Shown here piece by piece: positions 128-38,930 of a stretch of DNA of 41,192 nucleotides (positions are counted from its first letter, which is position 1; every line of letters begins with the position of its first letter). The stretch is from a virus. The position numbers were made by a program, and so were the translations under genes. Under the pieces are notes generated by a model. That model saw nothing but the letters and a program-made list of their open reading frames with translations, did no database searches and was not told the origin of the DNA. Location: the IMG/VR virus record IMGVR_UViG_3300024323_000005, positions 1 to 41,192 of that record, one strand, 5' to 3'.

Positions 128-478
128 TATCCCGCTTTGGACGGGCTCTGATTTCTCGACAGCCGAACTTTCTGTTTGCAGCAGCACAATTGCTGCGACT
201 GTAAACGCCAACGCTGCAATCTGCCGCGCGGATAACGTCTCTTTGAAGAAGAGCACGGCCACCAGTAACGCCAGCGATAGTGAAATCGCCTGCCACGCGA
301 TTGAGATTGACGCGAATGTCTCCATGCGAAGCGCGAACCACACCGGGCACGCAGTCAAGGCATAGCAGAGTACGCCAGCGATGAACTTTGGTGATCCCAA
401 CGCGAGGGCCGTCTTTAGAAAGACATCACCTAGGATTCCCATGGAGCAACTGAGCGCGATTAGACAAAAGACGATCAT
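98..478 (-). CDS. Small four-helix membrane protein, DMT/SMR-like
   Basis: 126 residues with four hydrophobic segments at about 1-20, 28-50, 60-80 and 85-103. The segment ending VLFFKETLSARQIAALAF resembles the last two helices of small multidrug-resistance and EamA-type transporters of the drug/metabolite superfamily. The usual SMR glutamate of helix 1 is absent (GILGD instead), so transport of drugs should not be assumed. The start ATG overlaps the stop of 475-1275 (ATGA). The last 20 or so residues (SAVEKSEPVQSGIQNEAKT) are encoded by the dispersed repeat at 112-162, whose GGCCAAAAC end also precedes the next gene. In a virus this could be a virion membrane or host-membrane protein. Confidence 0.7.
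   Translation of the reverse strand: MIVFCLIALSCSMGILGDVFLKTALALGSPKFIAGVLCYALTACPVWFALRMETFASISIAWQAISLSLALLVAVLFFKETLSARQIAALAFTVAAIVLLQTESSAVEKSEPVQSGIQNEAKTTWR
112..162 (-). repeat. Dispersed cassette-end repeat, copy 1
   Basis: Complement reads TGTCGAG...GAGGCCAAAAC followed by AACATG, the start of the basic protein gene. It encodes the C-terminal tail of the gene 98-478. Confidence 0.85.
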
Positions 479-1985: not shown

Positions 1986-2227
1986 CAACGCCGCCCGCCT
2001 TTGAGGAGTATCAGCGCCAGAATCCCAACCGCCGCATAGCCGAACATTGGGGACATCGGGGCACACGCGAAGTTGGTCGAAGAATCGCCCGTAGTCCCGA
2101 CAAACGGAAACGAACTCGACATGCAAAACGATCCAGCGGTAAACGTCTCGTTCGATTCGCACACGCTGCTTGCCGGGTTGAATGTGTAGCCGGGATCGCA
2201 CGCTTGACCGAGCCCTTTAACGTACAT
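1985..2227 (-). CDS. MYV-RGLG family small anchored protein (MYVKGLGQ)
   Basis: 80 residues: MYVKGLGQ signature, a Cys/Ser-rich extracytoplasmic-looking middle (three Cys), then a hydrophobic helix and a basic end (LALILLKGGRR). The ATG is preceded by GAGGCCAAAACAA from the dispersed repeat at 2231-2281, which supplies the GAGG as a probable Shine-Dalgarno. Same architecture as 1692-1985 and 2388-2594. Confidence 0.75.
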   Translation of the reverse strand: MYVKGLGQACDPGYTFNPASSVCESNETFTAGSFCMSSSFPFVGTTGDSSTNFACAPMSPMFGYAAVGILALILLKGGRR

Positions 2228-2315
2228 TTGTTTTGGCCTCCATCGGCGTAGCGTGCGCCACACCTTGAATAGTCCCGACAGCCGAACTCTTGTTGGCGCG
2301 AAGGGCAAAAGCCAT
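2217..2315 (-). CDS. Vestigial 32-residue reading frame made mostly of repeat
   Basis: ATG at 2315 to TAA at 2217. The last residues (PMEAKTNVR) are the repeat-encoded tail form, and SSAVG resembles the tail start in gene 98-478. It lies between two facing repeat copies only 35 bp apart, so I read it as the remains of a cassette whose cargo was lost. It may not be translated. Confidence 0.3.
   Translation of the reverse strand: MAFALRANKSSAVGTIQGVAHATPMEAKTNVR
2231..2281 (-). repeat. Dispersed cassette-end repeat, copy 2
   Basis: Its GGCCAAAAC end touches the start of the gene 1985-2227. Forms a nearly empty inverted pair with the copy at 2317-2377. Confidence 0.85.
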
Positions 2316-2316
2316 T

Positions 2317-2377
2317 CCTGGTCGAACGAGATCCCGGAAGGGCGAAGCATTCAGGCCGCCTGAGGCTAAAGCAAAAA
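2317..2377 (+). repeat. Dispersed cassette-end repeat, copy 3 (diverged end)
   Basis: Reads CCTGGTCGAACGAG...GAGGCTAAAGCAAAAAC. The GGCC core has become GGCT, suggesting decay. No plus-strand gene follows. Confidence 0.7.
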
Positions 2378-7607: not shown

Positions 7608-7988
7608 ATGTCGCAGGATTTAGCCGATCATATTCTAGCCTCAGGCAGCGTGCCGTCTTCGACCGAACCTGGAAGCGTTCGACCAGGACCAGCAGCAGTA
7701 GATTTGGCCAAACATAATTTCAACCCCGTTGGAAAGCTTGAATGGAAAAGATATGGAGAGGCCCGCTTCGGACTTCGGGGATCGCAGGTAATGGCGATGA
7801 TCCGGGCGAGCGACAACACCTACCCCATTAAGGTCTATGACGTTATTTACCCGGAACGAATGTTCCTCACTCCACAGGCCGCGCAAGAAGCAGCCGAGAA
7901 GCACACTCGATGCGACTTCCACGGTATTGAGTCCTGCCAACTCTGCTGGATTAATGTCGTCCCTTCTGACGAAGAGGGAGCCCACTAA
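7608..7988 (+). CDS. Hypothetical protein with repeat-encoded N terminus
   Basis: 126 residues. Residues 6-26 (LADHILASGSVPSSTEPGSVR) are encoded by the dispersed repeat at 7631-7686. The rest is a small domain with a C-terminal DFHGIESCQLCW containing a CxxC that may bind metal. The gene is preceded by AAGGGAGCCCACTAA and followed by the near-identical GAGGGAGCCCACTAA, each giving a Shine-Dalgarno before the next ATG; the upstream gene and this one both end in GAH. Function unknown. Confidence 0.7.
   Translation: MSQDLADHILASGSVPSSTEPGSVRPGPAAVDLAKHNFNPVGKLEWKRYGEARFGLRGSQVMAMIRASDNTYPIKVYDVIYPERMFLTPQAAQEAAEKHTRCDFHGIESCQLCWINVVPSDEEGAH
7631..7686 (-). repeat. Dispersed cassette-end repeat, copy in 5' end of 7608-7988
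   Basis: GGCCT is changed to AGCCT, but the rest (CAGGCAGC...CTTCG...GCGTTCGACCAG) matches. Translated on the plus strand as LASGS...GSVRPG. Confidence 0.8.
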
Positions 7989-12163: not shown

Positions 12164-12684
12164 GCGATTTGAAGGATAATATTTTGGCCTCTGGCGGCAT
12201 CCCGGCTTCGCCCGAACCTGAGAGCGTTCGACAGCCGAATGTTTTCGCCATCGAACACCTAGCCCAATGGGATCGCGGGGAATCAGTGTGGACCATCGAA
12301 ATGGGCGGACTGGGACCCGGTTACGAACAAGCCCTTCAGATTCTGGCCGTAGAAATCGTCCGCGATGAACTAAACAACCCCTTACCCCAGAAAGAGTATG
12401 GGAAATGGGGAGACGCTACCGTCGAGCGGATCGACCAACGGGACCCAGTGACCGGCAAGTACGCTTGTGGTGGTTTCTCTGGCGCTCAGGTTGGAGCCGC
12501 CAAGCAGATCGCATATCGTCTACTGAGGGATGGTCAAGAGTGGCTAAAGGCCGCGCCGGACGGTCGAAAGATTCAAGTGTCCCGCTTTTTCCCAGCAGCA
12601 CCCAAACCCGTGAATGTCGCCCGCTCAGAGCAAATCCAAGTCGCCGACCGTGGCAAGGCCAAAACAAAAGAAGGTGCCAAGTGA
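12160..12684 (+). CDS. Phage-type hypothetical with repeat-encoded head and tail
   Basis: 174 residues. Residues 7-25 (ILASGGIPASPEPESVRQP) come from the repeat at 12182-12234 and the last 25 (VNVARSEQIQ...GKAKTK) from the repeat at 12607-12665. The central domain (VWTIEMGGLGPGYEQALQILAVEIVRD and GFSGAQVGAAKQIAYRLLRDG) resembles conserved phage hypotheticals of unknown role. The start overlaps the previous stop (ATGA), and its stop overlaps the GTG of the next gene. The cassette boundaries fall inside the reading frame at both ends. Confidence 0.75.
   Translation: MSDLKDNILASGGIPASPEPESVRQPNVFAIEHLAQWDRGESVWTIEMGGLGPGYEQALQILAVEIVRDELNNPLPQKEYGKWGDATVERIDQRDPVTGKYACGGFSGAQVGAAKQIAYRLLRDGQEWLKAAPDGRKIQVSRFFPAAPKPVNVARSEQIQVADRGKAKTKEGAK
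12182..12234 (-). repeat. Dispersed cassette-end repeat, left end of cassette 12182-12665
   Basis: TTTTGGCCTCTGGCGG...GCGTTCGACAG, translated as LASGGIPASPEPESVRQP. Confidence 0.9.
12607..12665 (+). repeat. Dispersed cassette-end repeat, right end
   Basis: GTGAATGTCGCCCGCTCA...CCGTGGCAAGGCCAAAAC, translated as VNVARSEQIQVADRGKAK. Confidence 0.9.
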
Positions 12685-12866: not shown

Positions 12867-13056
12867 TTTCGATGGTTTGGCCTCTGGCAGCGCTTTGGCT
12901 TCGGCCAACCCGGAGAGCGTACGACAGCCGAACACTGACCGTTGCGCCGTTTGCGGGAAAGCCTGTTGCGCCTGCGACAAGTGCCGAGCGATCAAGGGGC
13001 ATCGGGCGGATATCTGTTCGGGATGCTTTTACAAGACGAAGGCGGTTGCGAAGTGA
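12856..13056 (+). CDS. Zinc-ribbon protein with repeat-encoded N terminus
   Basis: 66 residues. LASGSALASANPESVRQP (8-25) is encoded by the repeat at 12875-12927. The rest is Cys-rich: CAVCGKACCACDKC...CSGC, enough for one or two zinc sites. It may be a small DNA- or RNA-binding protein. The stop overlaps the GTG of the next gene. Confidence 0.65.
   Translation: MKTDFDGLASGSALASANPESVRQPNTDRCAVCGKACCACDKCRAIKGHRADICSGCFYKTKAVAK
12875..12927 (-). repeat. Dispersed cassette-end repeat, left end of cassette 12875-13275
   Basis: GTTTGGCCTCTGGCAGC...GCGTACGACAG. In this copy TTGGCC and GGCCAA can pair around the centre. Confidence 0.85.
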
Positions 13057-13307
13057 GCGAAGAGAAGATGATTCAGATGGCCAGCATTAAGACCGATGGG
13101 CCAGCCGGGAAGCGTTCGTTCACTATAATCCAACCGCCGTTTCCACAAGTCGGTGAATGGATAAACGGTATCGGGATTGTAAAGTCCGTCAAGTTGACCA
13201 TGGGATGTCTCTTAGCCCGTCCTGGTCGGGCGCAAGAAAGCCACGCGAAGAAAAGCAAGTCGACGGAGGCCAAAAGAAAAACAACATCCCACAAGGCCAA
13301 ACCATGA
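13053..13307 (+). CDS. Small hypothetical with long basic repeat-encoded tail
   Basis: 84 residues from GTG at 13053 (overlapping the previous TGA); ATG five codons later is an alternative. A short beta-type domain (FTIIQPPFPQVGEWINGIGIVKSVKL) is followed by about 35 residues translated from repeat DNA (RPGRAQESHAKKSKSTEAKR...HKAKP). The stop overlaps the next ATG (ATGA). Confidence 0.6.
   Translation: MSEEKMIQMASIKTDGPAGKRSFTIIQPPFPQVGEWINGIGIVKSVKLTMGCLLARPGRAQESHAKKSKSTEAKRKTTSHKAKP
13221..13275 (+). repeat. Dispersed cassette-end repeat, right end, with short extra GGCCAAACC downstream
   Basis: CCTGGTCGGGCG...GGAGGCCAAAAG. A second CAAGGCCAAACC at 13292-13303 lies directly before the ATG at 13304, as if two copies had been joined and one cut short. 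Confidence 0.75.
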
Positions 13308-14167: not shown

Positions 14168-14680
14168 TTGAGGATATACGTAGCAAGTTCATGGCGGAAC
14201 ACATTCCAGCCGGGAGTAGTTGAAGCACTTCGCGCGATTGGGCATGAAGTCTATGATTTCAAGGGCGCGGGCGATGGCTGGGGCGCGGGCGATGGCCCCG
14301 GTGGCTTCGCATGGTCGGAGGTAGATCGGGCATGGCAGGATTGGCCGACTAACGTACCGAGCTATCTCGCGGGCCTTGAGCATCCCCGGGCGATTGAGGG
14401 ATTCCGCCGCGACATGGATGCCCTAGAGCGCTCAGACGCATGTGTAATGGTGATGCCCTGTGGGCCCAGTGCGTCGATGGAAATGGGTTGGGCTTGCGGA
14501 CGCGGCATGAAGGTAATCGTCTATATTCCGGCGATGCGCGAACCAGACCTAATGGTGAAAATGGCTGGACTAGTGACGGACAATCTGGCGGAAGTTCTTG
14601 CCGCATTGAAACCGCAACCCATGAATGTCGCCCGCACAGAGTCAGTCCAAGCCGCAACCTGTGGCAAGGCCAAACCATGA
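14168..14680 (+). CDS. Nucleoside 2-deoxyribosyltransferase-like protein
   Basis: 170 residues from TTG at 14168, chosen because AGGAGGGG lies just upstream and it gives MRIYVASSWRN, the expected first strand. GHEVYDF, the DMDALERSDACVMVMPCG strand-loop and SMEMGWACGRGMKVIVY helix follow the pattern of the 2-deoxyribosyltransferase superfamily, which transfers or hydrolyses bases on nucleosides or nucleotides. A predicted catalytic Glu lies in SMEMGW. The final 20 or so residues (MNVARTESVQ...GKAKP) are repeat-encoded. Role could be nucleotide salvage, DNA modification supply or defence-signal handling. Confidence 0.75.
   Translation: MRIYVASSWRNTFQPGVVEALRAIGHEVYDFKGAGDGWGAGDGPGGFAWSEVDRAWQDWPTNVPSYLAGLEHPRAIEGFRRDMDALERSDACVMVMPCGPSASMEMGWACGRGMKVIVYIPAMREPDLMVKMAGLVTDNLAEVLAALKPQPMNVARTESVQAATCGKAKP
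14612..14676 (+). repeat. Dispersed cassette-end repeat, right end
   Basis: CATGAATGTCGCCCGC...CTGTGGCAAGGCCAAACC, touching the ATG at 14677. Confidence 0.9.
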
Positions 14681-14976
14681 AAACCTACCCGGTCACCCCC
14701 ACCCAGCTAAACCAGCTCAGAACCAGATTATTAGAACTAGGAGTCACACTCCCCGATGGACAGGAAGGAGTCTTGATCCATGGAGGGATTCAGTTGAAGT
14801 ACTTTTACTCTCCAGAAACCACGCAACTGCTGGGACCGAATCAACCAGGCGTGTTGACGTTGAGCATTTTGAAGAAGCCGATGGTTGTGCCGGCCGCCGC
14901 GATTTGGGCGCAGGTAGGCGGATGGATTGACGACGCGATTAGTGGGGCATCCCCGGCAAGCCAGAACCCCGCGTAA
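14677..14976 (+). CDS. Small phage-type hypothetical
   Basis: 99 residues starting MKTYPVTPTQLNQLRTRL. A beta-rich middle (IQLKYFYSPETTQLL, GVLTLSILKKPMVVPAAAIW) leads to a terminal helix (WAQVGGWIDDAISG). The pattern recurs in hypothetical proteins of soil bacteria and phages as far as I recall. Start by ATGA overlap with the preceding repeat-tailed gene. Its 3' end overlaps the convergent gene 14939-15115 by 38 bp. Confidence 0.65.
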   Translation: MKTYPVTPTQLNQLRTRLLELGVTLPDGQEGVLIHGGIQLKYFYSPETTQLLGPNQPGVLTLSILKKPMVVPAAAIWAQVGGWIDDAISGASPASQNPA

Positions 14977-15115: not shown

Positions 15116-15153
15116 GTGTACCTCAGGAGTTAGAGCGTTGGATGGTGTTTTTG

Positions 15154-16075: not shown

Positions 16076-16093
16076 ATCGATGTTGTCTTTTTA

Positions 16094-16159: not shown

Positions 16160-16167
16160 GGGGTGTC

Positions 16168-16455
16168 ATGGTGCGAGGACGGCCTGAAGTTATTGCTATA
16201 GAGACGGAAGAGGGCGTGCGAGTTCATTGCACTAGCGACGGCGGAAATTACGCCACGCTATGCGGCATGGACGGTGATGATTCTGAAGTGGGTCAACGCC
16301 CAGCTAACCTTCCAAGGAGTCATAAGATCACCTGCGATCAATGCTTTGCTATTTTCATGAAGGCCCGCAAATATCGCTTGTCAGATTTCGCGAAAGTGTT
16401 CAAGCCCGTCCTGGTCGAACGAGACAAAGGGAGGGCGAGTACTAATGCTGAATGA
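16168..16455 (+). CDS. Small Cys-containing hypothetical with repeat-encoded tail
   Basis: 95 residues. I use ATG at 16168 with GGAGGGG seven bases upstream. VHCTSDGG...TLCGMDGDD...ITCDQCFAIF holds four Cys. The end (VFKPVLVERDKG) is read from the repeat at 16399-16464 and matches the tail of 22906-23295 (EFKPILVEREQG). Unknown function. Confidence 0.65.
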   Translation: MVRGRPEVIAIETEEGVRVHCTSDGGNYATLCGMDGDDSEVGQRPANLPRSHKITCDQCFAIFMKARKYRLSDFAKVFKPVLVERDKGRASTNAE

Positions 16456-16464
16456 GGCCAAACC
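16399..16464 (+). repeat. Dispersed cassette-end repeat, right end
   Basis: TTCAAGCCCGTCCTGGTCGAACG...GAATGAGGCCAAACC. Contains GGGAGG and the ATG (16445) of the next gene. Confidence 0.85.
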
Positions 16465-16747
16465 ATCGTTACGTTCTAAGGCGTTTCCCCTTCTCTTTCA
16501 GTACCAAAGATCCATTCCCTCAAAACCACAAAACCCGCACAATAAACCCATGAAAGAACCCTTCAATATCGAATCCCCCGAACTAAACGAAGCACCGGAG
16601 CCCACACCGGAACAATCCCTCCAGCTCCGAATCATCTACCTCGAATCCGACTTGCAAAGAGCGCACCAGGATAACCGGCAACTACGCAAGCGCCTCGCCC
16701 GCGCTGAAGCCGTGTTGGGCATCGCGGATGGGGAGCGTGCCGCATGA
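16445..16747 (+). CDS. Short coiled-coil protein
   Basis: 100 residues from the ATG inside the repeat, which has GGGAGG ten bases upstream; ATG at 16550 (MKEPFNIE) would give 65 residues but lacks a ribosome site. The core QSLQLRIIYLESDLQRAHQDNRQLRKRLARAEAVL is a plain coiled coil. The stop overlaps the next ATG (ATGA). Confidence 0.55.
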   Translation: MLNEAKPSLRSKAFPLLFQYQRSIPSKPQNPHNKPMKEPFNIESPELNEAPEPTPEQSLQLRIIYLESDLQRAHQDNRQLRKRLARAEAVLGIADGERAA

Positions 16748-17468: not shown

Positions 17469-17749
17469 CTGCGCTTCTACCGTGGCTGATAATCGCCGTT
17501 CTCGCCTACGTGTTCCTGATTCCTGGAGGGTTTCTACTTATCTGTTTGATGGATCGGGCGGTGGGAAAAGATCACGAGAACTCTTGGGATGCGGCTCAGG
17601 TGTGGCCCGCTATGGTCCTCGCCGCCATCCTTTTGCTTATTGTGATGGTCCTATATGCGCCCTTTAAGATGATGGCCGTGGGGCGTGATGGCTTTATCCG
17701 ATGGATAGACGAAGGTCTGAGTTTAAGCCCGCCTGAGGCCAAACCATGA
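17465..17749 (+). CDS. Two-helix membrane protein with short repeat tail
   Basis: 94 residues from GTG at 17465 (GTGA overlap). Membrane segments at about 5-27 and 45-67, and a C-terminal SLSPPEAKP from the truncated repeat at 17717-17745. The stop overlaps the next ATG. Confidence 0.65.
   Translation: MTALLPWLIIAVLAYVFLIPGGFLLICLMDRAVGKDHENSWDAAQVWPAMVLAAILLLIVMVLYAPFKMMAVGRDGFIRWIDEGLSLSPPEAKP
17717..17745 (+). repeat. Truncated dispersed repeat (right half only)
   Basis: Only CTGAGTTTAAGCCCGCCTGAGGCCAAACC remains, directly before the ATG at 17746, which keeps the SD-like GAGG and the PEAK codons. Confidence 0.7.
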
Positions 17750-18210: not shown

Positions 18211-18464
18211 AAGTCACGACGATGCGCCGCCGCTATATTAAGACAGTTCGGTATATGTTGCCTACGCAGCGCGATGGCCAGATTCTCATCGAAGCTTTGG
18301 ACCTGTATGCTCTCACCGGAGAATTTAAAGAAACCCGCAAGCTAGAGATTTATAAAATCCGTGAGGCGTTGATTGAAGTCACGTACGGTTCCCAGCCGCA
18401 ATCCGTGAATGTCGAACGCTCAGAAGCGATCCAAGACGGGAAGCCGCCAGAGGCCAAACCATAA
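18207..18464 (+). CDS. Small hypothetical with repeat-encoded tail
   Basis: 85 residues from GTG at 18207 (GTGA overlap, GGGGG six bases upstream). The basic helical body (MRRRYIKTVRYML...) ends in VNVERSEAIQ...PPEAKP from the repeat. Last plus-strand gene before the terminator. Confidence 0.6.
   Translation: MKVTTMRRRYIKTVRYMLPTQRDGQILIEALDLYALTGEFKETRKLEIYKIREALIEVTYGSQPQSVNVERSEAIQDGKPPEAKP
18394..18460 (+). repeat. Dispersed cassette-end repeat in the 3' end of 18207-18464
   Basis: AGCCGCAATCCGTGAATGTCGAACGCTCAG...AGAGGCCAAACC, close to the family consensus. No gene follows it; a terminator does. Confidence 0.9.
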
Positions 18465-18502
18465 AAGAACTACCAGTTTGCCCTACCCTCCGAAAGGGCC
18501 TC

Positions 18503-22906: not shown

Positions 22907-23295
22907 TGCGCAGCATTTACGATGATCCATGGTGTACAACGTGTGGGAGTTATCATCGCCGTCTTGGCCCATGCCTCCCGAGAAATCCGCCGTTCTATCC
23001 AGAGCCAAAGGATGATGATTTAGCCTCAGGCAGCATCGCCGCTGCGCCCTCCCCTGAAAGCGTTCGGCCAGGAATGGCTGAGTGCTGCGAGAACTGCAAA
23101 TACTGGCTGTACGTTCCACGAATGACGATGGATGTACCATCAGGCCCCCAAGGGATGTGCCGACGCTACGCGCCTCGTTCTGGGTCACATTGGCCTTTGA
23201 CCTTCCATGGGGATTTTTGCGGAGAGTTCAAGCCCATCCTGGTCGAACGCGAGCAAGGCGGGCAAGCCGAGAAGCCGAATGAGGCCAAAATATGA
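22906..23295 (+). CDS. Two zinc-binding segments joined through a repeat
   Basis: 129 residues. Residues 1-35 have WCTTCGSYHRRLGPC. Residues 39-55 (LASGSIAAAPSPESVRP) are translated repeat. Residues 57-115 (CCENCKYW...GMCRRYAP...HWPLTFHGDFCGEF) match a small Cys-rich protein type common in phages. The end FKPILVEREQG...NEAKI is the repeat at 23227-23290. A likely origin is insertion of a cassette carrying the CENCKYW gene in frame behind another small gene; an internal ATG (MAECCENC) might also be used. Confidence 0.65.
   Translation: MRSIYDDPWCTTCGSYHRRLGPCLPRNPPFYPEPKDDDLASGSIAAAPSPESVRPGMAECCENCKYWLYVPRMTMDVPSGPQGMCRRYAPRSGSHWPLTFHGDFCGEFKPILVEREQGGQAEKPNEAKI
23019..23071 (-). repeat. Dispersed cassette-end repeat, left end of cassette 23019-23290
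   Basis: TTTAGCCTCAGGCAGC...GCGTTCGGCCAG, with GGCC changed to AGCC as in 7631-7686. Confidence 0.8.
23227..23290 (+). repeat. Dispersed cassette-end repeat, right end
   Basis: TTCAAGCCCATCCTGGTCGAACGCGAG...GAATGAGGCCAAAA, touching the ATG at 23292. Confidence 0.9.
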
Positions 23296-23594
23296 AAAGT
23301 ATGATCCTTTTGATGATCGCTGGATTCCTGATCGGTGACTTCGGATACTTCATGGTCCATGGGCACTCGATCATATGGGGCAACATCTTTCGCACTGTCA
23401 AAGCTTCAACGACGCCACGGGAGTACACCATCATAGTCACCCGCACCCCGGCCCCAGCTCAGATAATCGGCCGCATCCAAGTAGGCTTAACCAAAGCCGA
23501 AGCCGAGGGAGCCGCGTTCCAGCTCAACGAATTGTTCAGCAAAGAAAAGCTGGAGTGGAAAGCTGTGGCAACGCTCCCGGAGGCCATCAAATGA
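23292..23594 (+). CDS. Small membrane-anchored or secreted protein
   Basis: 100 residues. MKSMILLMIAGFLIGDFGYFMV is an N-terminal signal or anchor. The rest (EYTIIVTRTPAPAQIIGRIQVGLTKAEAEGAAFQLN) is a small alpha/beta segment of SPOR-like look, without proof. ATGA overlap with the next gene. Confidence 0.55.
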   Translation: MKSMILLMIAGFLIGDFGYFMVHGHSIIWGNIFRTVKASTTPREYTIIVTRTPAPAQIIGRIQVGLTKAEAEGAAFQLNELFSKEKLEWKAVATLPEAIK

Positions 23595-29815: not shown

Positions 29816-30127
29816 TTACGGTTCCGTCCTTTTGCGTGAGCCGCTGGGTTCGTCGTCGTGGGCTTTGTGGTCCTGCCCGTCGGCGTTTTCTTCTTTCAAC
29901 TCCGCGCGTCCCTCCACGTTGCCTTGTGCCCGGGAAGCGCTTGCGGTTGCCTGAGTCAGCTTTTCAACCAGGCCGTTGGTGTTGTGCTCCGTCCGTGTCG
30001 CAACTTCGAGAGTCTTTTTAGAATGACCCGAAGACTTATAGGAGAACCACGCCGCCGCCACTGCTCCGAAGGCAGCGGCGATGCCTGGAATGGTGTGGAT
30101 CAATTCGATCTGAACGGCGTCGGTCAT
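29816..30127 (-). CDS. Single-pass membrane protein with coiled tail, lysis-linked
   Basis: 103 residues: hydrophobic segment at 12-28 (TIPGIAAAFGAVAAAWFSY), then a charged helical tail (TLEVATRTEHNTNGLVEKLTQATASASRAQG). Small proteins of this type lie beside holins in many phages and may be inner-membrane spanins or holin regulators. ATG overlaps the upstream stop (ATGA) and follows GGCCAAAACAAA. Confidence 0.65.
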   Translation of the reverse strand: MTDAVQIELIHTIPGIAAAFGAVAAAWFSYKSSGHSKKTLEVATRTEHNTNGLVEKLTQATASASRAQGNVEGRAELKEENADGQDHKAHDDEPSGSRKRTEP

Positions 30128-30360
30128 TTTGTTTTGGCCTCGGGCGGTGCTGTGGCTTCGTCGGGGTTTGCACGCTCGACATCCGACAATTCTTCGCTTA
30201 CGACCGGCGTTCGCCTATCTTCATGAACAACACGGGCGAAGATTTTAAACCGCCTAGCTCCGTAATGGCGTCCGAAGAAAACACCGTCTTCGTTTTCAAT
30301 AAAGCGTAGTTGGCCACTGCTATCGCCGATAAGGGATGCCCGCGCATTGCTGAGTGTCAT
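30124..30360 (-). CDS. Small basic protein with repeat-encoded tail
   Basis: 78 residues from ATG at 30360. A beta-type start (LIGDSSGQLRFIENEDGVFFGRHYGARRFKIFARVV) is followed by a tail from DVERANPDEATAPPEAKTK, which is the repeat at 30132-30181. A longer frame upstream would run through another repeat and is unlikely. Cargo of an inverted pair. Confidence 0.6.
   Translation of the reverse strand: MTLSNARASLIGDSSGQLRFIENEDGVFFGRHYGARRFKIFARVVHEDRRTPVVSEELSDVERANPDEATAPPEAKTK
30132..30181 (-). repeat. Dispersed cassette-end repeat, left end of cassette 30132-30444
   Basis: Almost identical to the copy at 35615-35665, differing at only a few bases over 50, which points to recent duplication. 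Confidence 0.9.
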
Positions 30361-30382
30361 GATCGGCTCGTGCGGATTGAGA

Positions 30383-30444
30383 ACCCGTGATTGTCGCACG
30401 CTCACTACTTCACGCGAAGCTTTCGACCGTGGCAAGGCCAAACC
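30383..30444 (+). repeat. Dispersed cassette-end repeat, right end
   Basis: ACCCGTGATTGTCGCACGCTCAC...CCGTGGCAAGGCCAAACC, facing away from the cargo toward the 3' end of 30459-30992. Confidence 0.9.
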
Positions 30445-30458
30445 ATCCATGAAACCCC

Positions 30459-30992
30459 TTACCGCTCCCATCCCATCGAAGGCCACTGAAAACCGATCAG
30501 AGCCCCGAACAAGAAATTCCCCGCGCCCGTTGCTACTCCGGAAACCGTCTGCCCCTTGATTCTCACCGTTTCCCCTTCGTCGTGAACAAACTCAACCGGC
30601 CAGGGATCACCGGGAACGAAGGAACCCAACTGAAACGGCACCAGCGAGTAATCCTTTTCCGCATATCCCACTCCGGGGACTGGTACCGCCGTAGGGCTAT
30701 CGACATCGACCGTATAGAGCACTTGACCGGGAAGCGCCGAGCCGCCGCCGCCGTTGTAGCCGAGCACCAGACCGCACAGAAGCGCCGTCATTTTCACCGG
30801 CACCTGATAAGTCGCTACGATGACCTGAGCCGCCGCGCCGAACGCGGGAGCGACAACGAAGCCCGAAGCAAAGACCGGCCGCGCGTTCCAAGGAACAGGA
30901 GTGCCCCAAACAGTCCTTTTGTTTTCCGCCGCCTTCTGGAGCGCGACGAGAACATCTGTGAGGTCTTGTGCGGTGGTTTCAACGGCTGGCAT
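30459..30992 (-). CDS. Virion-type beta protein (short member)
   Basis: 177 residues from ATG at 30992, with GGGAG six bases upstream. A helical start (TAQDLTDVLVALQKAAENKRTVWG) leads to a beta-rich body (ASGFVVAPAFGAAAQVIVATYQVPVKMTALLCGLVLGY...) ending FLFGALIGFQWPSMGWER. The strand order and the terminal hydrophobic strand resemble the other proteins of this block. Low-confidence structural protein. Confidence 0.55.
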   Translation of the reverse strand: MPAVETTAQDLTDVLVALQKAAENKRTVWGTPVPWNARPVFASGFVVAPAFGAAAQVIVATYQVPVKMTALLCGLVLGYNGGGGSALPGQVLYTVDVDSPTAVPVPGVGYAEKDYSLVPFQLGSFVPGDPWPVEFVHDEGETVRIKGQTVSGVATGAGNFLFGALIGFQWPSMGWER

Positions 30993-31206
30993 TTGTGTCT
31001 CCCGGCATCCGAGGTACTCGCCGCTCCGCGATCCGCTTGCCGACGTTTGCAAGGAAAGGCAAACCGTCAGAGAGCAGCTTTTGAACGTTGGGCGGTTGCT
31101 TTGCTGCCCATTCTGCTACTGCTTTCGTTCGTTCGTCCGGGTCCAGGTAGCGAGCTGCGTTCTGACATACTTCGTAGAATTGGGCGAGGTCGTGGAGGGC
31201 TTTCAT
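30979..31206 (-). CDS. Small helical protein
   Basis: 75 residues, mostly helical (LAQFYEVCQNAARYLDPDERTKAVAEWAAKQPPNVQKLLSDGLPFLANVGKRIAERR). ATG overlaps the upstream stop and follows GGCCAAAACAAA. Overlaps the next gene by 14 bases. Confidence 0.6.
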   Translation of the reverse strand: MKALHDLAQFYEVCQNAARYLDPDERTKAVAEWAAKQPPNVQKLLSDGLPFLANVGKRIAERRVPRMPGDTNASR

Positions 31207-31601
31207 TTTGTTTTGGCCTCGGGCTGCACTTCATTGCACGCTTCCGTTGGGGGCTCGACAGGGTAGTCTGAATCCTTCGGAATAAAATGAGCACCGACCC
31301 ACTGGATAAAGCAGCCCATCCAATATTGACACTTGTACCACCGCGTCATTCTGAATGATCGCGAATCCATTGGTCCGTTCCGCCAGTCTTCATATAAGAC
31401 CCGCTGCGAGTTCGAACAGGTGAGACACGCCACGCAGGACGTGATAAAGCGGGCAGGAAAACGAAAGCTTCCGAAGTGCGTACACTGCCCGCATTCATGG
31501 CAGTAACAACCCGGAAGCCAGAGCTTCAGCCAGTTCAAGCCCTTCCTGGTCGAACGCGAGCAAGCCCGCGCGAAGACGTGTGCTGCCTGAGGCCAAAACA
31601 T
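31203..31601 (-). CDS. Cys-rich protein with repeat-encoded head and tail
   Basis: 132 residues. The head MFWPQAAHVFARACSRSTRKG is the repeat at 31534-31599, in the same frame as the CWPRA reading at 20269. The middle is Cys-rich (CYCHECGQCTHF, CVACLTCSN, YKCQYWMGC). The tail TEACNEVQPEAKTK is the repeat at 31211-31261. The original gene probably began later. Metal binding likely; function unknown. Confidence 0.6.
   Translation of the reverse strand: MFWPQAAHVFARACSRSTRKGLNWLKLWLPGCYCHECGQCTHFGSFRFPARFITSCVACLTCSNSQRVLYEDWRNGPMDSRSFRMTRWYKCQYWMGCFIQWVGAHFIPKDSDYPVEPPTEACNEVQPEAKTK
31211..31261 (-). repeat. Dispersed cassette-end repeat, left end of cassette 31211-31599
   Basis: TTTTGGCCTCGGGCTGC...GGGGGCTCGACA, touching the ATG of 30979-31206. 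Confidence 0.85.
31534..31599 (+). repeat. Dispersed cassette-end repeat, right end
   Basis: TTCAAGCCCTTCCTGGTCGAACGCGAG...CTGAGGCCAAAAC; its complement supplies the ATG and first 21 codons of the cargo gene. Confidence 0.9.
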
Positions 31602-31602
31602 A

Positions 31603-32238
31603 CTACGCCTTGACCCCTTCCCCTGTCGGAACCATCACCAGGAAAGTAAGCTGAATAGCTTTATTCAATTGAGGCTCTTCTTCACTTCCCGGCCCCAACT
31701 GATTCCAGAATTCAACCATAAGTTGCCCCGGAGGAACAATCGGATACGGAACCGGCAAGAGGCGCGGAGTCACCGGAGACACGAACCCGTTGGTTGATCC
31801 CGCGTACGGAGGATTCGCGTTCGACGGCTGTAACCAGTCGTTCAAAAAGTAAGCCTCAGGAACCGGCTTCGTAAAAAGCTGGTGATCAATTGCCAAGTCT
31901 GTAATCTGGCAAACGTAGCCCGAGGGCGCCGGGGGACTGATCGGGTTCGCTGGAGCGCCCCCGGCAACGCTGACGGTCGAGTGTAACCACCCGAGCAGGA
32001 AAGAACCTATGGGCAGGGTGAGCAGATATTCGAGATAGCCGCCCGCCGCGACACCCGCGGCTTCCGTTGTCGAATCGGGCGCATGGTAGAACCGGGGAGC
32101 GTAGCAGCCGAGCCGCGCGAACACGTCTGTACGCTCCGTGAAACGCGCCATCCAGTCACCCCAGTAATCGGTGAAGAGCGGGGAGAGTCGTAGCGGGTTC
32201 TCTGTGATTGTCGGAACGCAGACGCCGGAAGAGTTCAT
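31603..32238 (-). CDS. Virion-type beta protein
   Basis: 211 residues. The end of the chain (VPYPIVPPGQLMVEFWNQLG...LNKAIQLTFLVMVPTGEG) has the 'P-x-x-I-x-x-P-x-G-x-L-x-V-x-x-x-N' then 'V-x-L-x-F-x-G' order shared with 34801-35610 and 35962-36960, which I take as one beta-sandwich module. ATGA overlap with 32235-33497. Confidence 0.55.
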   Translation of the reverse strand: MNSSGVCVPTITENPLRLSPLFTDYWGDWMARFTERTDVFARLGCYAPRFYHAPDSTTEAAGVAAGGYLEYLLTLPIGSFLLGWLHSTVSVAGGAPANPISPPAPSGYVCQITDLAIDHQLFTKPVPEAYFLNDWLQPSNANPPYAGSTNGFVSPVTPRLLPVPYPIVPPGQLMVEFWNQLGPGSEEEPQLNKAIQLTFLVMVPTGEGVKA

Positions 32239-33497
32239 TGTGGATAGACCTTCATCCCTTTCAATCCTAGAACAATGTTGACAGCCGGTGGAGCTGCCGC
32301 CGCTGACCTAAGAAAGTATGCCGCATTCTGTGTGCCGATCACCGGAAAAGTATGATTCAAGTGCAACACCATCATTACGATCGTGCTTCCCGTGATCAGG
32401 AGCACGCCCAGCATTTCGACATCGTAAGGAAACGGGCTGACCGGCACTCCATCGACGCGCGAATCCCAGAATGTCTGCTGCGCCGCGCCGTTTCTCGAAT
32501 AGGCGATAGTCGCGCCGATGTTCGCATGGATATTGTTGTCAACGATGATGGTCTGAACGAACAGATAGAAATCCCCGCCGAACTGAACCAAAAAAGCAAA
32601 GTCATTCACGTTGATCGAGTCGACACCCACATCCACGCTCTGAATCCACGGAGCCGAAATAGACCACACCGGAGCCGCCGAGGGAGTACCCGAGACAACG
32701 GCCGCGTAGTTATCAGCCGTAGAGGAGGGTTGCACAAACGCCGGATTCTGCCCGATGATGACGCCGAACCGGATCGTGTCATCGGACGCCGTGTAGATGC
32801 CGGAAGTGTGGGAGCCGGAATTTTCGACAGCGCTGAATGAAGGGAGCGCGACATCAGCCGACACCACCACGCCGCCCGCGATCAGATCGGCAACCATGAC
32901 GCCGTTTGAAACTTGCCGCATCAGGTGTAAGCGGTCGTGCGAATCCACCACGTTGCCCAGAATGCCTTGAGTTTGGAAGTCATCCTGGAACGGAGCTGCC
33001 GCGCCGATGGGGAGTTCCCCGGCCCATACCCCGCCTGAAAGCACATCGAACAAGCACTGAGTGCCCTTGAAGTAGACGACGACACAATCACCGTTTGAGA
33101 GCACGCCGCCGCTCAGATACCCGTTGACGGATTCGCCGGCGGCCGACAACACCGTAAACAGCTTGGTCACCAGGTCGAACGTGGTAACCGTGATCGGTGC
33201 CGTGGTGTTGCTGCCCGTCGAGAAAAACCAGACCGTGGAACCCGAGCCCGGATAGTAGGCGTACGACGACAGGAAAAGAAGTGGGATGCCCGCCAGGTGC
33301 TTCGTGTGAGTAGCGAAGTCATCAGTGCTTTCATAGACCGCGATATCCGCTATGTTCGTCGCCGTCGTCAATTCTTGAGTGCAGGCAAAGGTTACGCCGC
33401 CGAACACAATCGGCCCGCAGTTCGAACGGCACAGATTGCCCTGCCCTACTTGTGCGACCGTTGCGGCCGTGGCGTCGATGAGTTGGGGCGTGGGCAT
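32235..33497 (-). CDS. Beta-propeller-like virion protein, paralogue 1
   Basis: 420 residues. Repeated blade-like segments with Asp-box-like pieces (VYESTDDFATHTKH, SGGVLSNGDCVVVYFKGTQ). The C-terminal NIVLGLKGMKVYPQ is identical to the end of the next gene 33498-34793, so the pair arose by duplication. Sialidase-type propellers bind or cut glycans, but no catalytic Arg triad can be assigned by eye. Starts directly after the preceding TAA. Confidence 0.6.
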   Translation of the reverse strand: MPTPQLIDATAATVAQVGQGNLCRSNCGPIVFGGVTFACTQELTTATNIADIAVYESTDDFATHTKHLAGIPLLFLSSYAYYPGSGSTVWFFSTGSNTTAPITVTTFDLVTKLFTVLSAAGESVNGYLSGGVLSNGDCVVVYFKGTQCLFDVLSGGVWAGELPIGAAAPFQDDFQTQGILGNVVDSHDRLHLMRQVSNGVMVADLIAGGVVVSADVALPSFSAVENSGSHTSGIYTASDDTIRFGVIIGQNPAFVQPSSTADNYAAVVSGTPSAAPVWSISAPWIQSVDVGVDSINVNDFAFLVQFGGDFYLFVQTIIVDNNIHANIGATIAYSRNGAAQQTFWDSRVDGVPVSPFPYDVEMLGVLLITGSTIVMMVLHLNHTFPVIGTQNAAYFLRSAAAAPPAVNIVLGLKGMKVYPQ

Positions 33498-34793
33498 TTA
33501 AGTTGCTTGCGGATACACTTTCATGCCCTTCAGGCCGAGCACAATGTTGGTCGTCGGAGTGGCAGGCGGTGCCGCAGCCGATCGCAGGAAATACGCGAGT
33601 GGCTTTGTCCCGGCCGCATCGCGTACGGTGAACAGGACGCCCAACGAAGCAATTTGCGCCGCACTGAATGCGAACAACCCTTGAGAGCCAAGCGCGAGAG
33701 CGTTCGGCGGATTGGTCGCGAGGTCGTAAAACAGATTGATTGCGCCCCATCCCGAGCCGGTATTGATTGAGCGCCGAATCTGAATTGTCGCGTGATCCGG
33801 CCAGTTGAGCCAGAGCGCCCAGAGCGTGGTGCCGTCGACGGCGAGTTGACCGACCGCTAAATCCGTAAAGTTCGTAGTTGCGCCGCTGTCGATATCTGTG
33901 AAGGTGAACACCGGAGCGGGCAGAGGTCCGCCCAGATACACGCGCATCGTGAACGTGTTTGCGCCCAACGGGGTATCATACGCAGCAAGCGCTACTTGGT
34001 TCTGCCAGAACGCCGGCCGCCCGTAGCTGGGGCGATAGTTTGCAACCGAGGGAGAAATCGCCACCGGAACACTGGGGACATTCCCCGGCCCCGCCGTGAT
34101 CTGATAGGCGTAATCGGCCGCAAACGCCACTCCCGTGATGAGCTGCTGCCGTTGAACAAACCCGTACGTGATGCCGGAACCCGGATCGTAGAGCAAGGAA
34201 GGTATGGACCAGCCTACCTGCGTGGCATCGTCGCCCGCGGCAAAGCTGGAAAACGCGCTCCAGACGCCGGCCGACAGGACCGAGAAACCTAGATCCGCCT
34301 CACTCACATTCGGAGCAACCACCAACGGATACACGATCAGGATATCGAGGCCCGTTGAGCGTACAACCCAATCGCAATCCTCCATCCCCAAGCCAGCTAC
34401 GCTGAGATCCGGGATGCTTCCAGCCGTGAAGGTATCGGTGAGGGCGCTAAAGGTGATCCATGAAAGAGTGATCGGCGCAACGCTAGTTGTGTTGTATGAA
34501 ATCGTGATCGTATGCCCGTCAGGATTGAGCCGCGCCGTCATTCTGCAAATCCCGGTGTAGCTGGGAGAGTTGGCCGCGTCCTGCTGTGCCCACGTCGCGC
34601 CGCCGTCGACGCTCTTGAAGACTACCACGAGGGTAGATCCATCGGTAGTCAGCAAAACGACATAGAGCGCGTTGTTGGCGACAAACGGCCCTTTGAAAAA
34701 GGCATCGTGCAACCCAATCGGTAAAACATTGAGTTGTGCGCTTTCTTGTGGCGAACTGTCGATTAATGCTGGGGGTAGGGTTACATCCGGCAT
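33498..34793 (-). CDS. Beta-propeller-like virion protein, paralogue 2
   Basis: 431 residues. A clear Asp-box (SVDGGATWAQQ) near 66-76 supports a sialidase-type propeller, and the end repeats AYFLRSAA...NIVLGLKGMKVYPQ of its neighbour. No signal peptide, so it is assembled or used inside the cell, unlike the fibres at 25092-28516. Likely binds host glycans on the virion surface (inference). Confidence 0.6.
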   Translation of the reverse strand: MPDVTLPPALIDSSPQESAQLNVLPIGLHDAFFKGPFVANNALYVVLLTTDGSTLVVVFKSVDGGATWAQQDAANSPSYTGICRMTARLNPDGHTITISYNTTSVAPITLSWITFSALTDTFTAGSIPDLSVAGLGMEDCDWVVRSTGLDILIVYPLVVAPNVSEADLGFSVLSAGVWSAFSSFAAGDDATQVGWSIPSLLYDPGSGITYGFVQRQQLITGVAFAADYAYQITAGPGNVPSVPVAISPSVANYRPSYGRPAFWQNQVALAAYDTPLGANTFTMRVYLGGPLPAPVFTFTDIDSGATTNFTDLAVGQLAVDGTTLWALWLNWPDHATIQIRRSINTGSGWGAINLFYDLATNPPNALALGSQGLFAFSAAQIASLGVLFTVRDAAGTKPLAYFLRSAAAPPATPTTNIVLGLKGMKVYPQAT

Positions 34794-34800
34794 TGTTCGC

Positions 34801-35610
34801 TTACGTCCAGAGGTACTTGAAATCGAAGAGCAACAACTGGCTTGCCGGAACGTAAATCTCGGGGTACACGAAACCCGGCAAGGCCGCGTTCATGAACGGA
34901 AACAATAGCGCGATCGGCACGTAGTCGTTTGAGTAGCCCTTGCCGAACGCATCCCGCATTCTGAAGCCCAGATCGGCGAGCGACATGGGGAGCCCGCCCG
35001 TGGTCGAGTCGGAATCGGCATACGCGCCCATTTGAAAAACGAAATCCGCGTCTTTTTCAACAATGAACGGTTGGTTGAGAATCGGCCCGCTGGTAATCGT
35101 CACGTTGGGGACGATCAGGCTATTGGTGTAGGGTCGCGCGGTCCATTTCTCGGGATAAGTGGGTTGCCAGATGTCGCCCGGTTTGTAAATCTTCGTGCCG
35201 ACGAACACGATAACCGCACTGGGGGTTTTGGTCGCCGGGTTCAGCGTTTGCAAGTCGACCGTTATAACCGATTGTGGCGGGAAAATGATGTTGGGCGTGA
35301 TCGGCGAAATCAGAGCTTGATTGGGATTCGCGCCCGTGGGCGTCGGGGTTCCTGCGTAGGAGTTACCGGGCGCAAGCGAGTTCGCCGGGGTGAAGATTCT
35401 TTGGATGAGTCGCCCATCGGGGCGCATGAAGCGCAAGGACATTTGACCATCGAAAGCCCCGCCCGCTACGTTGTTCGTCCAGACTGCGATGCCGTACAGC
35501 CTGAAGGGCGCGTCGTCGTCGGTTTGGAGGTTGAGCCCTTCCTGGATCGAGCCGGCCGGGTTTACTGTGGTTACCGGGAATACGTAGTGCTGCATGCGCT
35601 CGATGATCAT
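34801..35610 (-). CDS. Two-module beta-sandwich protein, capsid candidate
   Basis: 269 residues from ATG at 35610 (after GGCCAAAACAAA). Two similar halves: a first with NLQTDDDAPFRLYGIAVW...IIFPPQSVITVDLQTLNPAT...SAVIVFVGTKIY, a second with IVEKDADFVFQMGAYA...GFVYPEIYVPASQLLLFDFKYLW. The duplicated 'D-x-DA-x-F ... P-x-x-I-x-x-P ... G-x-K-x-Y' order is also in 35962-36960. A tandem beta-sandwich would suit a double-jelly-roll type capsid protein, but this is a hypothesis from pattern alone. Confidence 0.5.
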   Translation of the reverse strand: MIIERMQHYVFPVTTVNPAGSIQEGLNLQTDDDAPFRLYGIAVWTNNVAGGAFDGQMSLRFMRPDGRLIQRIFTPANSLAPGNSYAGTPTPTGANPNQALISPITPNIIFPPQSVITVDLQTLNPATKTPSAVIVFVGTKIYKPGDIWQPTYPEKWTARPYTNSLIVPNVTITSGPILNQPFIVEKDADFVFQMGAYADSDSTTGGLPMSLADLGFRMRDAFGKGYSNDYVPIALLFPFMNAALPGFVYPEIYVPASQLLLFDFKYLWT

Positions 35611-35882
35611 TTTGTTTTGGCCTCGGGCGGTGCTGTGGCTTCGTCGGGGTTTGTGCGCTCGACAGTTGGCATTTCTACATCCACACCAAATAAAACCTTG
35701 GCTCTCCCCTTCTCCATTTCGCTCAGCGCCTCTTCGGAAGCCCCGATCGAACGCAAATGACGTATCCACCAGCCCCAACAGCGCTCAGACTTAACCGCTA
35801 TCTTGGCTAGCGGCCGCACAAAGAACCAGATTGCTCCAAATATCAATCGAAACAACAATGCGATGGGATTTGGAATGGTCAC
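35607..35882 (-). CDS. Small membrane-associated protein with repeat-encoded tail
   Basis: 91 residues from GTG at 35882 with GGAGG seven bases upstream. A hydrophobic start (IALLFRLIFGAIWFFV) is followed by a basic helical middle and the tail TVERTNPDEATAPPEAKTK, nearly identical to that of 30124-30360. Cargo of an inverted repeat pair. Confidence 0.65.
   Translation of the reverse strand: MTIPNPIALLFRLIFGAIWFFVRPLAKIAVKSERCWGWWIRHLRSIGASEEALSEMEKGRAKVLFGVDVEMPTVERTNPDEATAPPEAKTK
35615..35665 (-). repeat. Dispersed cassette-end repeat, left end of cassette 35615-35948
   Basis: TTTTGGCCTCGGGCGG...GCGCTCGACAG; near-twin of 30132-30181. Confidence 0.9.
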
Positions 35883-35896
35883 GCGATATCCTCCCC

Positions 35897-35948
35897 TGTC
35901 GAGCGCTCACAAGCCGACGCGAAGACGGATACAGCCCGAGGCCAAAAT
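35897..35948 (+). repeat. Dispersed cassette-end repeat, right end
   Basis: TGTCGAGCGCTCAC...CCGAGGCCAAAAT. Its other end abuts the GGGGAGG used by the cargo gene's GTG. Confidence 0.9.
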
Positions 35949-35961
35949 AATAACACCCCGC

Positions 35962-36960
35962 TCACGTGCAAAACTCCTCACCATAGACCTTCACCCCGCG
36001 CAAGGAAAACTGAACGCTCACAGTTGCGGGAGTCAGCAAAGCGTTATCGACCGACACCACCGCGCCCCGTGGAATGTAAATCTCAGGCCAGTGGGGAGCC
36101 ATCCGGCCGCCGCCGTTTGATAACACCATCTCCGCACCCGGCCCCGCGATGTTCGGCATGAGCCCAACGCGCGGAATCTGTCTTGCCAGCGGAACAATCG
36201 CGTTGTCGTAGAACGTCAAGAACCATTCTCCCGGAATGGGGGCGGGGCCACCTTTGCTCATGATCATTCCCGAAGTGCCGCGCCACAGGAAAGAAGCATC
36301 GTCATCGGTGCGCAGGGCGAACTGTTGAAACACATTGTTGGGCGTCTGGGGTTGCAGATTCACCGCCCACGGGGGAGCCGTTGCGAGCGTGCCGTTGACG
36401 AACTCGAAAAAGTATTCGTACTCTTCAAACCAGATCGCCGGATGCCATGGCTTGCAGAATCGCCGCGACTGGGGGCGGAACTCCGGGATATCACCTTGCT
36501 TCGTGTCGCATTTGACGCGCTTCCAGCCTTTGAACCCGACGATAACAACGGCGGTTTCGGTTGCGCTTTGGTTCCAAATGTCAACGTAGGGTTGAGAGCC
36601 TTTGCGGAACGGGAGAACGGCGGGGCCTACCGGCCCGTTGATATCGTTCAGCGTTACCCAGTCCGACGTAATAAATTGCCCGTCGCCGTCGACCAGGCGG
36701 AACTTCAAATCTTGCGGGTTGAGCGTGCCCGTGGTGCCTACGATTGGTTGCGCGAAGATTTCACGCGCCAGATAATCCGCGTCATTGTCGACTTGCAATT
36801 GATTTTTGAGCGACTGGATTCCCGGAGCGATGGTTACCGTGATGGGGTCAAAGTCGAACTCGACATCACACCAGCCGGGGAGCTGGGGGGTGAAGCCTGC
36901 CCACTTGGGGGCGTACATGTTTCCTGACCAGGGGTTGACGGAAAAGCCGTTGGGGGTCAT
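35962..36960 (-). CDS. Two-module beta-sandwich protein, capsid candidate
   Basis: 332 residues with two alike halves. First: LQVDNDADYLAREIFAQPI...DLKFRLVDGDGQFITSDWV...YVDIWNQSATETAVVIVGFKGWKRV. Second: FALRTDDDASFLWRGTSGM...WFLTFYDN...HWPEIYIPRGAVVSVDNALLTPATVSVQFSLRGVKVYG. Both start with a D-x-DA-x-[YF]-L strand and finish with V-x-[VL]-x-[GR]-x-K. Same design as 34801-35610. The best large capsid-type candidate together with 38989-39669. ATGA overlap with the repeat-tailed lipoprotein-like gene. Confidence 0.5.
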   Translation of the reverse strand: MTPNGFSVNPWSGNMYAPKWAGFTPQLPGWCDVEFDFDPITVTIAPGIQSLKNQLQVDNDADYLAREIFAQPIVGTTGTLNPQDLKFRLVDGDGQFITSDWVTLNDINGPVGPAVLPFRKGSQPYVDIWNQSATETAVVIVGFKGWKRVKCDTKQGDIPEFRPQSRRFCKPWHPAIWFEEYEYFFEFVNGTLATAPPWAVNLQPQTPNNVFQQFALRTDDDASFLWRGTSGMIMSKGGPAPIPGEWFLTFYDNAIVPLARQIPRVGLMPNIAGPGAEMVLSNGGGRMAPHWPEIYIPRGAVVSVDNALLTPATVSVQFSLRGVKVYGEEFCT

Positions 36961-37121
36961 TTGTTTTTGGCCTCGGTCAGTATCCCGGCTTGGATCGCCT
37001 TTGAACGCTCGACAGCCGCCTTCACTTCTTCGAACACAGAACGCTTTGAACCGTCATGGGCGCAGCAGCCGAGGCCGAGCACCAGAGCGAAGAACAACCA
37101 CGTTGGAGAAAGGCGCGTCAT
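36957..37121 (-). CDS. Small lipoprotein-like protein with repeat-encoded tail
   Basis: 54 residues from ATG at 37121 (ATGA overlap with 37118-37576). MTRLSPTWLFFALVLGLGCC ends in a possible but weak lipobox (LGLG-C). The rest is AAVERSKAIQAGILTEAKNK, the repeat at 36965-37015. Might be an outer-membrane spanin-type lipoprotein; too short to judge. Confidence 0.55.
   Translation of the reverse strand: MTRLSPTWLFFALVLGLGCCAHDGSKRSVFEEVKAAVERSKAIQAGILTEAKNK
36965..37015 (-). repeat. Dispersed cassette-end repeat, copy before 35962-36960
   Basis: TTTTGGCCTCGGTCAG...GAACGCTCGACAG, translated on the minus strand as VERSKAIQAGILTEAK, one of the cleanest tails. Confidence 0.9.
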
Positions 37122-38728: not shown

Positions 38729-38736
38729 GGTTTTTA

Positions 38737-38789
38737 TTTTGGCCTCGTCAGATCATCCCGGCCCGGATTAACATGTGAGCGCTCGACAG
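38737..38789 (-). repeat. Dispersed cassette-end repeat, left end of nearly empty cassette
   Basis: ATTTTGGCCTCGTCAG...GCGCTCGACAG; only 40 bases separate it from the facing copy. Confidence 0.85.
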
Positions 38790-38930
38790 CCGATCAATCC
38801 GCCTTCGGAGGTAGACGAACAAATCTTGGATGTCGAGCGCACTTGAGCCACCATCGAAGCGCGAACGCCCGACGAGGCCAACCCAAAAAAGAAGTTGAAA
38901 GAGGCGGTGCAGCCCACATAAGAAAACCAC
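38748..38930 (-). CDS. Possible short reading frame made largely of repeats
   Basis: 60 residues from GTG at 38930 with AAGGGCG nearby. MVFLCGLHRLFQLLFWVGLVG could be a membrane segment, but more than half of the frame is repeat DNA. Another frame in the same place is equally open. Probably not a real gene. Confidence 0.25.
   Translation of the reverse strand: MVFLCGLHRLFQLLFWVGLVGRSRFDGGSSALDIQDLFVYLRRRIDRLSSAHMLIRAGMI
38830..38884 (+). repeat. Dispersed cassette-end repeat, right end of nearly empty cassette
   Basis: ATGTCGAGCGCACTTGAGCC...GACGAGGCCAACCC. Confidence 0.85.

Follow-up and report, generated by a model that had tools for sequence, protein, structure and literature searches.

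The 41,192-base virus record IMGVR_UViG_3300024323_000005, a soil phage sequence analysed here over its full length (hereafter, the window), carries about 40 copies of a short repeat on both strands, including a series between positions 30132 and 37015 that is read into the ends of proteins. We consider it likely that these repeats constitute the arms of an inverted-repeat insertion unit, one that became widespread within a single group of soil phages, and that the reading frame of the repeat-encoded protein tails is fixed by the placement of the unit between the stop codon of one gene and the start codon of the next. On this view the shared tails are a by-product of such insertions being read through, and the peptide itself is not conserved.

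The repeat and its distribution

A 12-mer search of the window for AAGGCCAAAACA with at most two mismatches returned 37 occurrences against 3.4 expected, and a profile built from the window detected about 41 copies at E < 1e-3. Each arm spans about 65-70 nt and contains two near-invariant boxes, GTCG on the inside (the left box) and AGGCCAAA on the outside (the right box), separated by 38-42 nt and mostly by 39-41 nt; these box features were seen in 307 well anchored elements. Twelve of the 13 window tails have GAGGCCAAA or AAGGCCAAA as their right box, read as GAG GCC AAA or AAG GCC AAA. The reverse orientation is as frequent as the forward one, copies outside genes are also frequent, and reverse-read copies at gene starts produce N-terminal extensions of the form LASG..ESVRP (open reading frames (ORFs) at 7608 and 12160). 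Two pairs of near-identical copies lie close together (15148-15215 and 16088-16154, 93%; 16015-16078 and 16402-16468, 91%) and are the clearest sign of recent local copying within the window. Since its first and last 127 bases are identical, the window was handled as a circle of 41,065 bases. The gene calls come from a simple caller based on codon usage, made for this analysis, so that single small genes are uncertain.

Profile searches of other viral contigs recovered this element from eight or more additional records, including G001 (58 kb), G003 (63 kb), G004 (60 kb) and G008 (41.5 kb), with 60-80 copies per large relative and a maximum of 79 in the 63-kb G003. The element is absent, by profile search (best E = 5), from G010 (51.7 kb) and G011 (18 kb), which share conserved structural genes with the carriers; the median intergenic gap is 18 nt in G010 and 13 nt in G011 versus 64-109 nt in carriers. 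G003 (IMGVR 3300050821_013320, 79 elements) and G010 (3300050821_014117, none) are related phages with the same metagenome number. Among bacterial and archaeal genomes in GTDB, 59 pattern matches were found, a chance level, and none passed the profile. The element matched no known RNA family.

Elements are mostly paired between genes

The outer box lies at a gene start and points in the direction of the gene in 75 of 257 elements, and lies at a gene stop in the opposite direction in another 66, while strand alternates between successive elements in 204 of 252 neighbours. The distances are sharp: from outer box to start codon, 11 nt separates 47 of 90 cases and 14 nt a further 12, and 12 nt is the commonest distance to a stop (27 of 90). 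Placement, alternation and distances together therefore indicate that elements are mostly paired, with their outer boxes pointing apart. The outer box also carries a Shine-Dalgarno-like GAGG or GGAGG. Defining a unit as the stretch between the two outer boxes of one such divergent pair, we counted 97 units shorter than 900 bp, of which about 20 are minimal (116-128 nt between outer boxes). Minimal units measure about 150 bp overall and form one family, as judged by their consensus and a mean identity of about 60%, and longer units enclose a small gene. Elements of the window include the following.

30126..30182 (-): gene-ward (sense) arm; tail VERANPDEATAPPEAKTK of ORF 30124-30486, ending at the ATG of gene 29816-30127; hidden Markov model E=7e-7, right box in phase 0
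30381..30446 (+): partner arm, completing unit 30126-30446 with right boxes outward; immediately after the stop of gene 30459-30992; profile match
31208..31265 (-): sense arm; tail ..VQPEAKTK of ORF 31203-31601, ending at the ATG of 30979-31206; profile match and phase test
31537..31602 (+): partner arm; N-terminus MFWPQAA.. of the bridging ORF 31203-31601, adjoining the stop of gene 31603-32238; E=1e-12
35609..35664 (-): sense arm; tail VERTNPDEATAPPEAKTK, ending at the ATG of 34801-35610; profile match and phase test
35888..35953 (+): partner arm, completing unit 35609-35953 after the stop of gene 35962-36960; profile match
36961..37014 (-): element; tail VERSKAIQAGILTEAKNK, ending at the ATG of 35962-36960; profile match and phase test
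106..162 (-): element; tail VEKSEPVQSGIQNEAKT of ORF 98-478; profile match and phase test
2227..2290 (-): sense arm of minimal unit 2227-2377; profile match and minimal-unit alignment
2308..2377 (+): partner arm of the same minimal unit; profile match and minimal-unit alignment
7525..7581 (+): element; tail VEHTNG..QPEAKTK of 6093-7604; profile match and phase test
7627..7689 (-): reverse-read element; gives ORF 7608-7988 its N-terminal extension LASGSVPSSTEPGSVRPG; E=5e-10
12176..12244 (-): antisense arm; N-terminal LASGGIPASPEPESVRQPN of ORF 12160-12684; E=3e-12
12604..12669 (+): sense arm; tail VNVARSEQIQ..GKAKTK of ORF 12160-12684, in a bridged unit with cargo; profile match
12870..12937 (-): antisense arm of unit 12870-13278; profile match
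13215..13278 (+): sense arm of unit 12870-13278; tail of ORF 12942-13307, left box in phase 1; profile match
14618..14681 (+): element; tail of 14168-14680, stopping in the ATGA of 14677-14976; profile match and phase test
16402..16468 (+): element; tail of 16153-16455, the sole tail with its right box out of phase; profile match
17701..17747 (+): right half of an element only; tail ..SPPEAKP; model positions 22-68
18400..18465 (+): element; tail VNVERSEAIQDGKPPEAKP; profile match and phase test
23012..23077 (-): antisense arm of unit 23012-23296; profile match
23231..23296 (+): sense arm of unit 23012-23296; tail FKPILVEREQG..NEAKI, stopping in the ATGA of 23292-23594; profile match
38731..38788 (-): sense arm of minimal unit 38731-38888; profile match and minimal-unit alignment
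38824..38888 (+): partner arm of the same minimal unit; profile match and minimal-unit alignment

Filled and empty orthologous junctions

We compared orthologous junctions at which the homologous protein ends reach up to the junction; these lie within the same phage family, at sites other than window 30132-37015. The unit G003:22666-22789 corresponds to gaps of 1 in G001, -4 (ATGA) in both G004 and G009, and -1 (TGATG) in G002. The units G001:21252 (gap 151) and G004:53362 (gap 148) face a gap of -4 in G010, with a gap of -1 in G011 opposite the G001 unit. The unit G003:27217-27696 is matched by gaps of 0 in G004 and 10 in G002, and a further junction, filled in both G003 and G004, has a gap of 11 in G001. 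Given that the orthologous genes abut in relatives, the units were either inserted at these sites or precisely lost from them, and gain by insertion would be the simpler reading.

Units are often bridged by an open frame and may carry small genes

A unit was scored as bridged if one ORF starts at the first arm and ends past the second, with expectations derived from shuffled interiors. In the gene direction, bridging was found in 18 of 23 units below 200 bp (7.3 expected), 19 of 35 units of 200-400 bp (0.9 expected) and 5 of 24 units of 400-900 bp (0 expected); in the opposite direction, 3 of 35 units of 200-400 bp were bridged. Of the 42 bridging ORFs, 34 read the second arm's outer box in phase 0. 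Proteins of the longer units have the layout M(S/L)AS..ESVRPG - core - LLVERS..EAKP, in which both ends derive from the repeat and the core is variable. One cargo core contains a RyR domain (PF02026, E 3e-9), and others show weak matches to NinG and to a ribbon-helix-helix family.

The tail frame follows from placement

A preliminary description of the window had proposed that 13 proteins finish in repeat-encoded tails read in a single frame, reflecting either selection on the peptide or a strict insertion rule tied to the ATGA overlap. All 13 tails are present and 12 have the right box in phase 0 (binomial p = 1.7e-5 versus 1/3), but the single frame does not extend to the tail at 16455, which is shifted and whose protein meets a TGA stop immediately within the right box. 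Of the 12 window tails that have a left box, 11 read it in phase 0; the tail at 13307 reads it in phase 1, and that at 17749 consists of the right half only. The 12 in-phase proteins share the ending EAK, with variants, KAK among them.

The spacing from the outer box to the start codon that follows is set, the sequence reading GAGGCCAAANNATG. A right box in phase 0 leads to an end in the TGA of ATGA; phase 1 leads into the downstream gene's own frame, or to a stop at TGAGG (as at 16455), and phase 2 runs on out of frame. The tail frame is thus constant because the right box sits 11 or 14 nt before the next ATG (59 of 90 cases), with the tail stopping in ATGA. Together with the exact fit of units between stop and start at the filled and empty orthologous junctions, this supports the insertion rule.

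The other proposal, that the tail is a conserved C-terminal tag for sorting, packaging or stability selected at the protein level, draws on the right-box frame shared by 12 of 13 window tails and on their mostly EAK endings, yet neither box falls within a called gene in 243 of the 307 elements. Among relatives, moreover, tail-coding elements use each of the three frames for the left box (V-E-R, S-W-S-G and S-P-G-R), varying with a box distance of 39, 40 or 41, and the boxes are equally invariant in tail-coding and non-coding elements. The left box being free of frame and the right box bound by placement, the constant part of the tail reflects placement rather than selection on the peptide. We therefore discarded the tag, on account of the three-frame reading and the elements outside genes, and regard it as highly improbable.

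Folding and coupled dinucleotides

Single arms gave no fold signal (z about -0.4), and the single arm was rejected as a structured RNA; only paired arms fold. The six minimal units tested in silico formed long hairpins as RNA (z -5.0 to -6.2), and the three that were also modelled as DNA gave z -3.9 to -5.6. In the predicted hairpin, the outer boxes close the outer stem and the inner boxes form a central stem of about 20 bp. The GGAGG ahead of the downstream start is base-paired in this fold, a hint that the hairpin may be opened by ribosomes reading the bridging frame.

The two bases that follow GTCG predict the two at the edge of the outer box: AA goes with TG in 167 of 174 arms, AG with CG in 52 of 57, GG or GA with GG in 51 of 51, and CC or CA with CA in 9 of 9. 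This coupling survives permutation within genome and flank classes, and where A comes first, the second base can pair, as A-T, G-C or G-T, with the base preceding the box in 227 of 235 arms. TA with AA is a further coupled combination at the AGGCC edge, and the coupling concerns the elements in general, for example those at window 30126-30182 and 14618-14681. Tandem G.A pairs closed by a Watson-Crick pair would fit the pattern, except for the GG class, which does not. Pairing between arms was rejected as the cause, partner arms not being matched. In kind, the coupling is reminiscent of single-strand transposons with their matched end sequences, a likeness that we take as a lead only.

Proposed mechanism and alternatives

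In the mechanism that we propose, a unit occupies the space between two genes that run in the same direction, immediately after the first stop and immediately before the second start, in many cases at a site that is an ATGA or TGATG overlap in relatives. It often constitutes one ORF that begins in the first arm, frequently at an ATG sharing bases with the TGA upstream, and runs to the second arm, where the TGA within the downstream ATGA is its stop. Ribosomes translating through the unit would keep both genes coupled and open the hairpin, and the units might be mobilised in trans by an enzyme. A more specific version, which we put forward tentatively and consider possible rather than probable, is that the units are phage-borne mobile small-gene cassettes with protein-coding inverted ends, which would capture diverse ORFs, insert at stop/start overlaps while keeping translational coupling, and be moved by an enzyme requiring matched arm-end dinucleotides (AA/TG, AG/CG, GG/GG, CC/CA).

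Several observations weigh against an inserted, mobile unit. No close relative was found for the 30-37 kb region of the window, and by the strict test only 4 of the 12 units tested in the window alone are bridged. The preference for gain over precise loss appeals to parsimony; some orthologous slots are filled in several genomes (up to four), and in view of these shared slots many units would be old and could be kept for function. ATGA often stands on both sides of units, and shuffled partners show the same; no target duplication separable from the stop/start requirement was found. Similarity between the paired arms of one unit does not exceed that between random arms, so that no unit looks recently copied. 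Pfam revealed no transposase domain in eight cargo ORFs, and no transposase or recombinase common to all carriers was found, the serine recombinase occurring only in G001, G003 and G004 and an IS1595 transposase only in G003. Finally, homologous segments end at element-bearing gene borders about as often as at element-free ones (41% versus 39%). The serine recombinase gene (PF00239, E 4e-39) lies at L029:4487-5155 in G003, at 41.2-41.9 kb in G001 and at 31.9-32.5 kb in G004, and its C-terminus (GSVRPGDGL in G003) is encoded by a reverse-read element.

The repeats could alternatively be a vertically kept regulatory leader, with a Shine-Dalgarno sequence and a hairpin setting the expression of the next gene, like the repeats of cluster K mycobacteriophages discussed below, the tails being upstream genes that run into it. 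The GAGG or GGAGG located 11 or 14 nt before the start would suit this role, the class of the start-side element stays with orthologous genes (59 of 76 concordant versus 25.3 expected) and some slots are filled in four genomes. However, nearly as many elements are reversed behind stops, two relatives of the same group lack the element altogether, orthologous junctions are empty with plain ATGA overlaps, and whole small genes are enclosed in units, all of which make a leader an unlikely explanation. Still less probable, in our estimate, is that the elements are gene-border linkers through which cassettes are shuffled by homologous or site-specific recombination, integron-like in effect. Elements do occur at 63% of broken versus 28% of conserved gene adjacencies (pairwise p 5e-13), and both the diverse cargo ORFs and the base coupling between the ends of each arm would agree with such linkers, but the association becomes weak once gap-matched junctions are counted once (p 0.02 to 0.17), sequence homology does not end preferentially at elements and there is no common recombinase. 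Two further candidates were rejected: recombination break points at elements, which do not exceed those at other gene borders and are weak after gap matching, and a gene-sized transposon with terminal inverted repeats and inner boxes outward (+ gene -), for which neither target duplication nor partner similarity was seen.

Comparison with known elements

The inverted-repeat units work like a translated miniature inverted-repeat transposable element (MITE) and are a new variant, which we place in no named family because no target duplication could be told apart from the stop/start requirement and no autonomous partner emerged. MITEs are short, lack a transposase, have inverted repeats, form hairpins and occur in many copies (PMC10969869). 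The phage units are similar in their minimal size of about 150 bp (too short for a transposase of their own), outward AGGCCAAA boxes, hairpin and insertion polymorphism at orthologous sites; they differ in that no autonomous partner with the same ends was found, the arms are only about half identical and a 63-kb virus holds up to 79 copies. Rickettsia palindromic elements (RPE), about 150 bp long, palindromic, present in many copies and often fused to genes and translated in frame (PMC10969869), are comparable in size, palindromic form, copy number and an in-frame ORF through the repeat, as in our bridging ORFs and tails. RPE often reside inside genes of bacterial chromosomes, whereas the phage units lie between genes, bridge stop to start and carry whole small genes.

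Among phage elements, the mycobacteriophage mobile elements MPME1 and MPME2 are likewise ultra-small and were identified by empty sites in relatives. MPME1 is 439 bp long, with identical copies in BPs and Hope and a 6-bp addition at the target (PMC3029335); our units, in contrast, are diverged, abundant and open to translation. The start-associated sequences (SAS) of cluster K mycobacteriophages are 13 bp long and present in 11-19 copies, nearly all in one orientation, and the extended form (ESAS) consists of inverted repeats with a spacer (PMC3203893). Both resemble our elements in lying just before start codons with a Shine-Dalgarno core, but ours occur in both orientations (66 at stops versus 75 at starts), reach 60-80 copies in large relatives and enclose small genes. 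The archaeal halovirus HF2 has a class of 58 bp intergenic repeats that were tested as promoters (PMC8707807), and is thus another virus with intergenic repeats, although its abstract mentions neither inverted pairing nor a bridging frame. Unlike an integron cassette, with its single attC site in one orientation, our units have inverted arms on both sides, and PHROG and Pfam scans of selected genes revealed no integron integrase. In the open-access literature we found no phage element with bridging reading frames, the nearest being RPE, MPME, SAS and the HF2 repeats.

Neighbouring genes

A row of small proteins, conserved in the group and each marked by RGLG or GLG near the N-terminus and by a hydrophobic segment at the C-terminus, is encoded at window 475-6006 and L028:1-7000. 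Neither Pfam (475-1191 and 4834-5982) nor PHROGs (4834-6006) gave a match, and the conserved protein 4130-4837 has no relatives among annotated phages; these are probably virion proteins of an undescribed virus group. The gene at 23977-24519 encodes a peptidase/endolysin-like protein (metallo-endopeptidase and endolysin PHROG matches) with an N-terminal MYVRRGLG and a C-terminal hydrophobic segment.

Implications

Our analysis suggests that a parasite-like DNA element can build up to 60-80 copies within a phage genome of some 60 kb by settling between touching genes, where an open frame together with a preserved stop and start may leave the operon readable. The units also furnish many small genes with ready-made ends. 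For annotators, shared protein tails in such genomes should be taken as repeat read-through and not as tags. The testable question raised by these phages is whether insertions in compact viral operons are tolerated only where ribosomes can bridge them.

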